From NCBI RefSeq assembly GCF_008121495.1, contig NZ_CP043051.1:496001-560000 (forward strand): a DNA stretch of 64,000 bases, written 5' to 3'. The position numbers and the translations under genes were made by a program. This document shows positions 49,817-54,342 of the stretch, piece by piece (the first letter of the stretch is position 1; each line of letters begins with the position of its first letter). Source of the DNA: Mediterraneibacter gnavus ATCC 29149. Lineage in GTDB: Bacteria; Bacillota; Clostridia; Lachnospirales; Lachnospiraceae. The notes under the pieces are model-generated. The model was not told where the DNA came from. It ran no database searches and was given only the letters and a program-made list of their open reading frames with translations.

Positions 49817-51550
49817 CTATTTTTGTTTCCACACACAATATGCCTCAAACGCAGATGGAATCGAATACTTTTCCTTTAATACTTCTTCTTTTGCAAAAAT
49901 CATTTCCTTGCTGCAGTTTTTCTCCAGCTCATCCACCTGGATCTCATACCCTTTCATTTGCCATTCTACATGACTGAAAATATGCTTCGCAGCCGGAAGT
50001 TTTTTGATACGGATCGGAGAAAGCCCGATGGACTTGCTGTACTCGATCACTTCTTGTTGACTCAGCCAGCCTTCCAGATTCGGCAGTTCGTATAATCCCG
50101 CGAGAAGTCCTTTGTCCGGACGTTTCTGAATTGCCAGAGTATCACTGTCATGAAATACAAGTACCGTCCTCTTTTCGATTTTTCTTCCCTTTGCTTTTGT
50201 TTTGACCGGAAGCTCCATTGCGATTCCTTCTTTTCTGGCACGGCAGATCTCTGCTGCCGGACAGATCTCGCACTTTGGCTCTCCGTTTGGCACACATACG
50301 ATCGCACCAAGCTCGATCAATCCCTGATTAAAGTCTCCCGGACAATCTTTTGGAATCACTTCCTCCAGTGCCGTCTCTATCGCCGTACGGACTTTGGCTT
50401 TCATAATATCTTCTCTGCTTGCCAGAATCCGGGACACCACACGCAGCACATTTCCATCCACCGCCGGTTTTGGTATTCCAAACGCAAAAGATCCGATAGC
50501 TCCCGCCGTATAATTTCCAATTCCTGTCAGTGCATGGATTTCTTCATATGATTCCGGAAACTGACCGCCATACTGCTCAACCATCTGGATCGCAGCTTTC
50601 TGCATATTGCGGACCCGGTTGTAATATCCAAGCCCTTCCCACAGCTTCATCAGCCGGTCCTCTTTTGCATTGGCCAGATCCGTGATCGTCGGAAGTTCCT
50701 TTAAAAACCGGTCATAGTACGGCTTCACTGCTTCCACCCTAGTCTGCTGCAGCATAATCTCAGACACCCACACTCGGTACGGCGTCACATCATGCCTCCA
50801 CGGCAGATCCCGCTTATTTTCACGATACCAGGCTACAATCGGATCTACGGTTTCCCACAAAATCGGTTTCTCTAATACAACCGGAACTTCTTCATCGATT
50901 TTGATCGAATCTTCTGTCACCTGACAGTCATACGCCAGAATCTTTACCCCTGCTGCTTTTGCTTTTTTCAGTACTTCACCAAATTCCGGCTGTGTATCCA
51001 TATTCGGTGTAAAATAGCGGACGCCTTTCATCTGGATCACCAGAAATACATAAGCATCGTATCCTTCCTTTTTTGCACGGATCAGTTCTTCCATATGCTT
51101 TACTGCCCGCTCACTCGGCGCATCCGGAAAACGCACAACACCATCCTCTTCCAGGGTCACTCCCTTGACCTCGATAAACGCTTTCTTTTCTCCCGACTCC
51201 ACATAAAAATCAAATCGGGAGTTGCCGTATGTTGTCTCCGGGCGAACCGTCACCGGTTCAAGAAACAAATTGCCTGCACGCAGCCATTCTTCCACGACTT
51301 TGTTTGGAATCTGGGAATCCATATTGATCAGACGATTTCCTTTTCTCACCCCGATCAGATCCCATTTTGTCTTTCGCTCCGGGTTGTCACTCTCCTGCAC
51401 AAAAATCTCTGCTTCGGGCACAAGAAGTTCCGCGCACCTGCCTGTATTCTTCACGTGGATCGTCTCTTGTTTTCCTGCAATCCTGGCATACGCAATAAAA
51501 CGGTTCGGCCGTTCCAGAAATGTCGCCCGCTCTATTCTCTCATATTTCAT
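49817..51550 (-). CDS. fusion of SfsA nuclease and adenine glycosylase MutY
   Basis: The 577-residue protein joins two normally separate enzymes. Residues about 1-232 form SfsA (start MKYERIERATFLERPNRFIA, with TTYGNSRFDFYVE and AFIEVKGVTLE), a DNA-binding protein reported to act as a nuclease. Residues about 235-577 form MutY, which removes adenine opposite 8-oxoguanine. It has LQQTRVEAV with the catalytic Glu before it, the HhH region ALTGIGNYTAGAIGSFA, PAVDGNVLRV with catalytic Asp, a four-Cys cluster (C-x7-C-x2-C-x5-C) and a C-terminal NUDIX-like 8-oxoG domain. ATG 51550 fits the SfsA start. The gene begins two bases after the GTPase gene. Confidence 0.93.
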   Translation of the reverse strand: MKYERIERATFLERPNRFIAYARIAGKQETIHVKNTGRCAELLVPEAEIFVQESDNPERKTKWDLIGVRKGNRLINMDSQIPNKVVEEWLRAGNLFLEPVTVRPETTYGNSRFDFYVESGEKKAFIEVKGVTLEEDGVVRFPDAPSERAVKHMEELIRAKKEGYDAYVFLVIQMKGVRYFTPNMDTQPEFGEVLKKAKAAGVKILAYDCQVTEDSIKIDEEVPVVLEKPILWETVDPIVAWYRENKRDLPWRHDVTPYRVWVSEIMLQQTRVEAVKPYYDRFLKELPTITDLANAKEDRLMKLWEGLGYYNRVRNMQKAAIQMVEQYGGQFPESYEEIHALTGIGNYTAGAIGSFAFGIPKPAVDGNVLRVVSRILASREDIMKAKVRTAIETALEEVIPKDCPGDFNQGLIELGAIVCVPNGEPKCEICPAAEICRARKEGIAMELPVKTKAKGRKIEKRTVLVFHDSDTLAIQKRPDKGLLAGLYELPNLEGWLSQQEVIEYSKSIGLSPIRIKKLPAAKHIFSHVEWQMKGYEIQVDELEKNCSKEMIFAKEEVLKEKYSIPSAFEAYCVWKQK

Positions 51551-51552
51551 AA

Positions 51553-54255
51553 TCATCTTTCTCCTGTTTTGCCGGGCATCTCTCCCAGCCTGACTTTTTC
51601 AAGCTGCCTTGCGTCTTCCTTTGTCAGATAATCAAACAGATAGTTTCTGTCATTTTCTGCTTTTCCAAGATGTTCTCTTCGAATTTCCAAAAGCGCAAGC
51701 TCCACTTCCTCTTTCAATCCCAAAGCAGACATACGCGCTGCGCCGTGCCCCAGAATGATCACCTGTTCCAGCGCATCTGATGTAGCAACTGTCACATGAT
51801 GATTTCTTCCGATCCTGCGGACTGTCTTTTCAATATACTGATCCGCAGTCTCGGCCTCTTTTGTATATACCACATGAATGTTGTGATATTTCATCACAGA
51901 TCCCGGACCGCCTTCTACCTTGTAGGCATCAAAAACCAGGATCAATGTACATTTTTTATATCCCTGATAATTACACAGCACGTCCATCAGCTTGTCTCGG
52001 GCACTTTTCAAATCTGACTTTGCCAGCTCTTTTAACTCTTCCCATGCAAAAATAATATTGTATCCATCTACAAGGAGATATTCTTCCTTTTTTTCTTCTT
52101 TGCGTGATGTCCACTTATCATCCGCTGCCGGCTGTGCTTTTGCCCTTACCATTACGGGTGTCCGGTTCTTTTTCACCGGATCCGGTGTTCTTGCGTAAAT
52201 CGCATCCAGTTCTTCCCGGGTCAGTTCGATCTGGGAAGAAGTACTGCGTGTCTGACGCACCACCGGGCGCTTCTTCTCTTCGGAAACCTCATTGCTCTCC
52301 AGCGTGTTTTCCAGATGCATATACGCTTCCACTTCATCCCAGTTCACTACAAATCCGGCTCCATGCGCGCAGAACACCGAGCCTGTCGGATTTTCCAGAT
52401 CTGCCTCAGGGTCATATCCGATTTCTTCCACGATAGGCTCCTGATCCGGACATTTTTCATAGCCTTTTAACCGACAGGACATCCGTCCTCTCCCTCCGGT
52501 ATACGAAGTGAGCTCTGTCTGATATCCGCGCATCTGAGACACCGGGGCACACCCTTTTAAAATGGAGATTTCCCCGTCTGCGACAGGCGGCTCAAATGTC
52601 CCGCTTCTTTTCTGGATATCCATCATAGCCCGTCCCACGTGCTCTGGAAGGAGCTCCATCTCGAACTCATAATACGGCTCCAGAAGGACACTCTTTGCTT
52701 TTCTAAGCCCCTGACGCACTGCACGATAGGTCGCCTGTCTGAAATCTCCGCCTTCTGTATGTTTCTGATGAGCACGACCGGATACCAGTGTAATCTTCAT
52801 ATCTGTGACCGCCGATCCGGTCAGTACCCCTTTATGCTCTTTTTCTTCCAGATGAGTAAGAATCAGACGCTGCCAGTTGCGGGTGAGAATATCTTCACTG
52901 CAGTCTGTAAAAAACTGCAAACCGCTCCCACGCTCTCCCGGCTCCAGTAAAAGATGTACCTCCGCATAATGACGCAGAGGTTCAAAGTGTCCGACCCCTT
53001 CGACAGGATCCTCAATCGTCTCTTTATAGACCACTTTCCCTGTTCCAAATTCCACACGTACTTTAAACCGATCCCAGATAATGCTTTTCAGAATTTCGAT
53101 CTGCACTTCTCCCATCAGCTGCGCATGGATCTCACAAAGCCGCTCTTCCCATACAATATGAAGCTCGGGCTCTTCCTCTTCCAGCTCTTTTAGATTGAGA
53201 AGCATCTTGTGTATATCACAATCCGGCGGCAATTCAATCCGATAATTCAGGACCGGTTCTAAAATCGGCATATCAGACTCCGACTCTGCTCCCAGCCCCT
53301 GTCCCGGATACGTATCAGAAAGCCCGGTAACTGCACAGACTTCCCCTGCATGTACCTCTGAAAGCATCTCATATTTTGCACCGGAATAGCGGCGGATCTG
53401 ATTGATCTTCTCCTCCGTATCCGTGATGATCTCCCTGACCTTTATACTTCCTCCTGTCACTTTTAAATATGTCAGTCTGTTCCCCTGCTCATCCCGTCCA
53501 ATCTTGTATACTTTCGCACCAAATTTTGCGGGATACTGTCTCTCCTCGGTCAAACTCTCAAGCGCATCCAACAGTTCTTCCACACCTTCTGTGTGCAGTG
53601 CTGAGCCAAAATAACACGGAAATACCCGTCTCTGACTGATCAAATCTGCTACCTGCTCTCTCGGAAGTTCTCCGTTCTCCAGATACTGCTCCAGCAGCCC
53701 TTCATCACACATGGCTAGCTGCTCTGCTGCCTCTTCACTGCTTTCACTTCCAAACACTTTTTCAAAATCAATACAGTGATCTCCAAATCGCTTTTTCAAT
53801 TCTGCCAGAACGCGTTCTCTGTCTGTTCCCGCCTGGTCCATCTTATTCACAAAAAGAAACACCGGGATCTTGTACTGTCCAAGAAGTCTCCACAGTGTCT
53901 CTGTATGTCCCTGTACTCCGTCTGCACCACTGATCACAAGCACTGCATAATCCAGAACCTGCAGTGTCCGCTCCATCTCCGCAGAGAAATCCACATGCCC
54001 CGGTGTATCCAGCAGAGTTATCCCCATATCCTTCCAGGAAAGCACTGCCTGTTTTGAAAAAATAGTGATTCCTCTGGAACGTTCCAGATCATAGGTATCC
54101 AGAAATGCGTCCTTATGATCCACCCGTCCCATTTTCCGGATACTTCCGCTTATATAGAGCATACTTTCCGACAGTGTCGTCTTTCCTGCGTCTACATGAG
54201 CGAGGATGCCAAGACAGATATGTTTTTTTACTTTTTCAGACTCTTTTGAGCTCAT
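51553..54255 (-). CDS. Tet(M)/EF-G-like ribosome GTPase fused to a YacP/Rae1-type NYN ribonuclease
   Basis: The 900-residue protein has residues about 1-650 like ribosomal protection proteins and EF-G. The GTPase motifs are AHVDAGKTT (19-27), RGITIF, LDTPGH and VNKMD, followed by EF-G-like domains 2 to 5. After a polar linker (about 650-720) comes a NYN/PIN-like domain (about 724-870): LLVDGYNIIFAW, VFDAYKV, ETADQYIEK and VATSDALEQ match B. subtilis YacP/Rae1, an endonuclease that cuts mRNA in the ribosomal A site. The expected acidic active-site residues are present. The fusion would bring an A-site nuclease to ribosomes by means of a translocase-like GTPase. Tetracycline resistance itself is not shown. 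Confidence 0.9.
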   Translation of the reverse strand: MSSKESEKVKKHICLGILAHVDAGKTTLSESMLYISGSIRKMGRVDHKDAFLDTYDLERSRGITIFSKQAVLSWKDMGITLLDTPGHVDFSAEMERTLQVLDYAVLVISGADGVQGHTETLWRLLGQYKIPVFLFVNKMDQAGTDRERVLAELKKRFGDHCIDFEKVFGSESSEEAAEQLAMCDEGLLEQYLENGELPREQVADLISQRRVFPCYFGSALHTEGVEELLDALESLTEERQYPAKFGAKVYKIGRDEQGNRLTYLKVTGGSIKVREIITDTEEKINQIRRYSGAKYEMLSEVHAGEVCAVTGLSDTYPGQGLGAESESDMPILEPVLNYRIELPPDCDIHKMLLNLKELEEEEPELHIVWEERLCEIHAQLMGEVQIEILKSIIWDRFKVRVEFGTGKVVYKETIEDPVEGVGHFEPLRHYAEVHLLLEPGERGSGLQFFTDCSEDILTRNWQRLILTHLEEKEHKGVLTGSAVTDMKITLVSGRAHQKHTEGGDFRQATYRAVRQGLRKAKSVLLEPYYEFEMELLPEHVGRAMMDIQKRSGTFEPPVADGEISILKGCAPVSQMRGYQTELTSYTGGRGRMSCRLKGYEKCPDQEPIVEEIGYDPEADLENPTGSVFCAHGAGFVVNWDEVEAYMHLENTLESNEVSEEKKRPVVRQTRSTSSQIELTREELDAIYARTPDPVKKNRTPVMVRAKAQPAADDKWTSRKEEKKEEYLLVDGYNIIFAWEELKELAKSDLKSARDKLMDVLCNYQGYKKCTLILVFDAYKVEGGPGSVMKYHNIHVVYTKEAETADQYIEKTVRRIGRNHHVTVATSDALEQVIILGHGAARMSALGLKEEVELALLEIRREHLGKAENDRNYLFDYLTKEDARQLEKVRLGEMPGKTGER

Positions 54256-54260
54256 GAAAA

Positions 54261-54311
54261 CGCCTCCTCTTGTGATTACATTGATGTTGTATTATATCAC
54301 AAAAGGAGGCG
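54261..54311 (-). promoter_or_regulatory. inverted repeat with extended -10 and Shine-Dalgarno of the GTPase-nuclease gene
   Basis: On the minus strand CGCCTCCTTTTGTGAT (54296-54311) pairs with ATCACAAGAGGAGGCG (54261-54276), one position wobbling. The second arm holds the ribosome binding site AGGAGG five bases before ATG. An extended -10, TGATATAAT (TATAAT at 54291-54296), lies between the arms. It could be an operator, an intrinsic terminator of the upstream amino acid operon, or, on readthrough RNA, a hairpin that hides the binding site. Confidence 0.7.
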
Positions 54312-54342
54312 ATAGTCGAGATACGTTCTCGTTTTCACTCTT

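Follow-up and report, generated by a model that had tools for sequence, protein, structure and literature searches.

Rae1 is described as an endoribonuclease of the ribosomal A site (PMC6613710); it attacks mRNA there, and such cleavage readies complexes for tmRNA (PMC12320835). Atkinson 2015 (PMC4342817) describes the gain of a YacP-like NYN RNase domain by Tet proteins in ten Clostridiales species and suggests that these proteins may be a new mechanism of antibiotic resistance. The locus considered here lies in a window (the whole stretch of DNA that was analysed) of 64,000 nucleotides from Mediterraneibacter gnavus ATCC 29149. It encodes a protein of this very architecture, so that the architecture of the system, presented as 'undescribed' in the earlier note, had already been reported. 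We found no functional study of the fusion in the literature searched; the two main Rae1 papers, outside it, may hold a remark on the fusion. New here are the counts in Clostridia, the near-exclusion of a separate YacP and the fusion as a replacement of Rae1.

A GTPase and a Rae1-type domain in one frame

The gene starts with an ATG preceded by GAGGAGG and continues for 900 codons and a stop (Table 1). The uninterrupted 900-codon frame proposed earlier is thus exact at 51,553-54,255 and belongs to the minus strand; the plus strand carries many stops across the same interval. Pfam families above their cut-offs are GTP_EFTU (residues 10-236), EFG_IV (406-521), EFG_C (523-605) and NYN_YacP (727-889), the last with 179.4 bits for a cut-off of 24.6 (E 7e-53); EFG_III and EF-G_D2 are marginally under their own cut-offs. 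The EF-G-like domain set of Tet-type ribosomal protection proteins is present, and the set of GTPase motifs announced by the earlier note is complete from G1 to G5. The NYN part aligns with B. subtilis YacP (5mq9, also 5mq8) at E 1.4e-26, with VDGYN, VFDA, ETAD and ATSD in register. Residues D7, D53, D81 and D104 of 5mq9 (numbered on the alignment), which we take to be the catalytic residues of Rae1/YacP, match the acidic site of the fusion. The YacP/Rae1-like domain noticed earlier is therefore well founded, its four aspartates being intact, and it is the sole NYN_YacP match in a search of its own genome.

Table 1. Features of the fusion gene, its leader and its downstream neighbour (positions in the window)
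Feature	Coordinates	Strand	Basis
Fusion gene, 900 aa: EF-G/Tet-type translational GTPase, linker and NYN_YacP nuclease	51553..54255	-	single ORF, Pfam
G domain, residues 10-236, G1-G5 motifs and His87	53548..54228	-	Pfam GTP_EFTU, motifs, alignment
EF-G domains II-V, residues 245-605; domain IV tip GRAHQKHTEGGDFR, where Tet(M) has GLYYSPVSTPADFR	52441..53523	-	
C-terminal extension, residues 606-655, common to unfused relatives	52291..52440	-	alignment; pLDDT 84-88 at 611-650
Linker, residues 656-724; disorder over most of its length, short conserved motif E682-L-x-x-I686	52084..52290	-	
NYN_YacP (Rae1-type) endonuclease domain, residues 727-889; acidic site D730, D776, D805, D827	51589..52077	-	
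Downstream neighbour, SfsA-MutY fusion protein, overlaps fusion gene stop (ATGA)	49817..51556	-	
Leader hairpin, 14-bp; 5' arm 54311-54298, 3' arm 54274-54261 with Shine-Dalgarno	54261..54311	-	MFE -34.8 kcal/mol, z -7.1
Predicted promoter TCGACT-17-TATAAT, TG before -10 (extended -10), nested in hairpin	54291..54319	-	motif search

Conservation was counted in 79 rows, made of the window and 78 of the 80 relatives kept from genome contigs. These 78 carry both domains in one frame, and the frames of the other two exit the contig end; the nearest DNA relatives found have a protein identity of about 70%. On the GTPase side K25, T26, T64, D83, H87, N137 and D140 are invariant (79/79). Loss of the catalytic NYN aspartates, which would have spoken against an active nuclease, is not seen: D730, D776 and D805 are kept in 79/79 rows, and D827 in all 77 rows extending that far.

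The same organization is widespread. Among 293 Clostridia genomes of 95% completeness or more, an NYN_YacP domain is present in 193, of which 97 have it in one frame of more than 800 aa with an EF-G-like GTPase (both searches agree), 90 as a separate YacP, and 6 as interrupted or split copies, set aside from the final count (G040, G137, G141, G142, G058 and G172). One genome (G170), with a frame of 865 in one search and 1190 in the other, is counted as fused. The search for this architecture across Clostridia called for by the earlier note thus has a clear outcome, and separate production of the two domains, then seen as a possible objection, is not what these frames display. A chance open frame or an assembly join is ruled out by the one frame shared by the 97 Clostridia and the 78 relatives. 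The remaining 100 genomes have no match to the domain, and a Rae1-type function is therefore dispensable. Within the genus, the gene is present in 38 of 41 genomes, and 35 of these 38 matches are frames above 800 aa without internal stop, and many Lachnospiraceae records contain the fusion. In a Bacillota sample (299 genomes, 167 matching) the separate form of YacP predominates, with at least 18 among the matches listed sitting in frames of more than 800 aa.

A mobile resistance gene was considered and rejected. Only 2 of 1360 matching plasmid records cover at least 80% of the query, one of them a 518-kb Monoglobus replicon, and 2 of 114 phage records cover 80%, both unannotated faecal sequences, one marked UNVERIFIED. 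Nor is the protein a known anti-phage defence protein, with 0 PADLOC families at E 0.01. In the downstream neighbour the N-terminal and RE domains of SfsA are joined to a MutY-like glycosylase that has NUDIX_4; this neighbour was not found beside the fusion gene in the 80 relatives. More generally, conserved operon partners were looked for in flanks of at most 4 kb, many of them shorter, and none of eight window neighbours recurs in the 80 relatives at E 1e-20, the sole matches being two distant ABC ATPase ones.

The structure model used, built from 104 rows, has a mean pLDDT of 80.9 (61 for an earlier one from 54 close sequences) and superposes on ribosome-bound TetM over residues 10-641. Foldseek and VIA-align lists for it are full of EF-G-like chains, and the identity of the NYN domain comes from sequence. 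Residues C629 and H647 of the C-terminal extension and C602, immediately ahead of it (52,315-52,452), are near-invariant in fused proteins (79, 76 and 77 of 79 rows), recur in unfused relatives in the alignment and possibly form a metal site. Residues 656-719 have a pLDDT below 50 in the 104-row model, and the linker varies from 58 to 108 aa with poor conservation (33 rows). Its E682 is invariant in 104 rows; it opens an E-L-x-x-I motif (residues 682-690), often followed by TYG in relatives, the rest of the linker being variable. This motif may be a docking site.

The separate Rae1 gene and the relatives of the fusion

A separate YacP above cut-off is found in 1 of 97 fused genomes and in 90 of 190 others (Fisher p ~3e-19, relatedness ignored). 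The replacement is not strict, because the one fused genome concerned (G253) retains a separate rae1 above cut-off; in three other fused genomes (G109, G159 and G188) second NYN_YacP matches occur below threshold only. The separate gene has a stable place, adjoining sigH in 25 of 26 loci and rlmB in 22 of 26. The order in M. gnavus is cysS, a small gene, rlmB and sigH (cysS, rlmB and sigH being named by NCBIfam), yacP being absent; the small gene ahead of rlmB, for which no NCBIfam model was found at E 1e-20, is presumably mrnC.

The rlmB loci of 27 other fused genomes contain no intact NYN gene at E 1e-5. In 13 of them rlmB is followed by sigH; the remainder have no sigH in the stretch or an incomplete stretch. 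Eight of these 13 rlmB-sigH slots were searched again singly, with more queries, for traces of yacP. The slot of G020 (L122:2217-2849) holds a decayed yacP with several stops at E 1.4e-14, where the best of 40 shuffles, a control made for this slot only, reached E 0.003. Short, likely traces are present in G265 (E 2e-5) and G126 (E 7e-5), the two loci being L126 and L134, and a doubtful one in G173 (E 7e-4); all four run in the operon direction. The best E in the remaining four slots was no better than 0.02. Therefore, in G020 at least, a separate gene once existed and then decayed. The fusion has replaced the separate gene, a finding that not only bears out but strengthens the tie to Rae1 drawn in the earlier note.

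In those 22 loci the neighbour of separate yacP, rlmB, is a gene for a ribosomal RNA methylase, which would also suit a ribosome or tRNA maturation factor, whose NYN domain processes rRNA or tRNA while its GTPase probes the subunits. This was the first prediction for NYN domains, as cited in PMC4342817. However, the characterised member of the family, Rae1, is described as a translation-dependent mRNase, and we consider maturation very unlikely.

Phylogeny was examined for each part of the protein. In a GTPase tree of 72 rows rooted on EF-G (leaving out duplicates, partial copies and three rows that are broken or truncated, L074, L076 and L115), the 33 fused GTPases form one clade (starred support 99), joined at low support by an unfused Ligilactobacillus salivarius plasmid protein. 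Two unfused clades stand beside it, of 19 rows (starred 96) and 2 rows (starred 99), and the order of the three clades is not settled by the tree. Fused and close unfused GTPases together make a clade of 55 rows (starred 100), apart from Tet(M), Tet(W), Tet(S), Tet(Q), Tet(36) and the Tet-like gene of the same genome. In the NYN tree of 61 rows, where the badly cut domains of L033, L054 and L076 have a meaningless placement, 31 of 34 fused domains form one clade (starred 96/98), and L081 lies outside on a long branch. This clustering suggests that the fusion probably has a single origin.

The L. salivarius protein (L032:3983-5917, plasmid pA17A) is an unfused relative with 50% identity, labelled tetracycline resistance and encoded beside rpsN. 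Its place inside the fused clade, with an unstarred support of 84, makes a loss of its NYN domain possible. The unfused GTPases of Clostridia (~650 aa) have the domains, the tip consensus HxKHTxGGDF and the C-terminal extension of the fusion, but they stop where its linker starts and are without NYN. Close unfused GTPases (44-53% identity) occur in 18 genomes, of which 12 have a separate YacP and 6 have none; therefore the GTPase also does something without NYN. The association of the two separate genes is not significant (12/18 against 78/172, p 0.13, relatedness again ignored), and the p of 0.02 for co-occurrence obtained by adding three looser unfused genomes is not relied on. In G189, a Lachnospiraceae genome, a separate NYN gene of 173 aa (L112:6787-7308) is nested next to the NYN of the window (starred 98/93), with its active site kept. 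It lies away from rlmB, and an unfused-type GTPase is encoded elsewhere in this genome, an apparent case of natural re-splitting of the fusion.

The modules might then keep independent ribosome functions, the tether only co-localising or co-expressing them. The predicted long disordered linker, the 6 of 18 genomes with the unfused GTPase and without YacP, and the apparently re-split NYN gene of G189 with its unfused-type GTPase all agree with such a fusion of convenience. Against it, the one-frame fusion is maintained in 97 of 293 Clostridia and in 35 of 38 genus matches free of internal stops, and the linker motif has its invariant E682; we regard this alternative as improbable.

Antibiotic ribosome protection combined with an RNase, along the lines of Atkinson 2015, is another alternative, in which the GTPase would expel tetracycline, or a different drug, from the A site while the NYN domain clears away the stalled message. 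The Tet-like domain architecture, with about 31% identity to Tet(M), goes in this direction, as do the suggestion made in PMC4342817 and the annotation of some relatives, among the best 120 of 7971 records, as tetracycline resistance proteins. The usual name in these 120 is 'translation factor GTPase family protein'. Yet the fusion scores 440.8 bits with the NCBIfam tet_protect model NF012153, below its cut-off of 775, and falls outside the Tet rows in the tree. It is equally below the cut-off of the EF-G model TIGR00484 (342.4 bits for 659.4), and its EFG_IV score is 78.6 bits, when two other genes of the same genome (709 and 696 aa) have 152.5 and 150.5.

Loop III of domain IV reads YYSPVSTPADF in 6/6 Tet rows. 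This is not found in the consensus of the 33 fused and 21 unfused rows, which is HxKHTxGGDF (GRAHxKHTEGGDFR) with a loop length equal to that of Tet, single rows such as L043 and L032 deviating from it. Pro509 of Tet(M) loop III lies in the drug site (PMC8161019). Loop III of Tet(M) tolerates substitutions (PMC4750697), and since the lengths are also equal the tip is not decisive on resistance. In addition, a Tet(W)-like protein for ribosomal protection is already encoded by another gene of the genome, at ~2.336 Mb (L109; 643 aa, 77% identical to Tet(W)). Taken together, tree, cut-off, tip and this second gene make a resistance role less likely, and we hold it to be unlikely. As to the earlier label of 'Tet(M)-type', the EF-G/Tet-like GTPase domains stand, but the term is too narrow, as tree, NCBIfam cut-off and domain IV tip set the protein beside Tet.

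A leader hairpin with a predicted nested promoter

The fusion gene is preceded by a hairpin whose 5' arm sits in the spacer of a predicted promoter. The promoter search found 1 where shuffles gave a mean of 1.0, which alone is not significant; TGTGnTAT of the -10 region is invariant in 23 aligned leaders. These comprise 9 of 121 examined, 13 of 18 others of the genus and the window. In them 91.8% of cells pair, a percentage biased because leaders were picked partly by visible pairing; the compensatory changes, less subject to this bias, amount to 19 cells with a change in both partners, where sliding the partner as a control gives 5 at most. When the longest ORF is taken, a crude rule, as the gene upstream of each leader, 14 families are represented and 19 of 22 such genes run in the direction of the fusion gene, and by this sequence comparison the conserved leader is tied to the fusion gene, not to upstream neighbours. 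Its exact pattern occurs once in the genome, and the region has no Rfam family at E 1.

RNA from the predicted promoter would be without the 5' arm. The hairpin is thus predicted to act on read-through transcripts alone, in which it would mask the ribosome-binding site. Phage T4 gene e has a similar leader arrangement.

Possible mode of action and relation to known systems

We propose, with an about even chance of being right, that the protein is a ribosome factor whose GTPase module would deliver the Rae1-type nuclease to the A site and so take over the job of Rae1. We infer ribosome binding, A-site cleavage, the order of events and a control of cleavage by the GTPase cycle as follows. On ribosomes whose A site is empty or obstructed, the EF-G-like module would bind the factor site, and the tethered NYN domain would then cut mRNA in or beside the A site. 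GTP hydrolysis would release the factor, leaving behind a truncated mRNA, and tmRNA, the gene of which is present in the genome, could rescue the complex. Domain IV of Tet/EF-G and a docked Rae1 would overlap in the A site; therefore the two modules would have to act in turn, or NYN to reach the mRNA elsewhere. Domain IV and NYN probably act in turn, over the linker of 58-108 aa. The mechanism offered in the earlier note, in which the protein would sense ribosomes, clear the A site and cut the message, is likewise hypothetical.

A more extended reading, which we advance tentatively and at somewhat less than even chance, is that of a self-contained GTP-gated surveillance enzyme. It would select a ribosome state, carry its own endonuclease and stand in for free Rae1 in many Clostridia, and its leader would limit translation to RNA from its own promoter. 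The choice of ribosomes cut by Rae1 is, to our knowledge, unsettled, and its natural fusion to a factor-site-type GTPase points to a GTPase step as a possible source of this choice. If true, many Lachnospiraceae records would contain a translational GTPase that has mRNA cleavage built in. As the fusion is labelled tetracycline resistance in places, mending this label would matter for resistance-gene surveys.

With regard to known systems, the 'Tet with YacP-like NYN domain' of Atkinson 2015 (PMC4342817) has the same architecture, and the accessible part of that paper describes neither a link to Rae1 replacement nor a test. Tet(M), Tet(O) and Tet(W) resemble the fusion in being EF-G-like GTPases, and its identity to Tet(M) and Tet(W) is 31-33%. 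The fusion differs from them by its own clade, another tip, another C-terminal extension, the NYN domain and a mostly chromosomal location among the records seen. B. subtilis Rae1/YacP has the same NYN_YacP domain with the four aspartates, and is like it usually present in one copy per genome. Rae1/YacP stands alone, with ~170 aa and a gene that typically adjoins rlmB and sigH, whereas the NYN of the fusion forms the C-terminal part of a GTPase whose gene lies elsewhere; judging from sequence, it seems to fill the same role.
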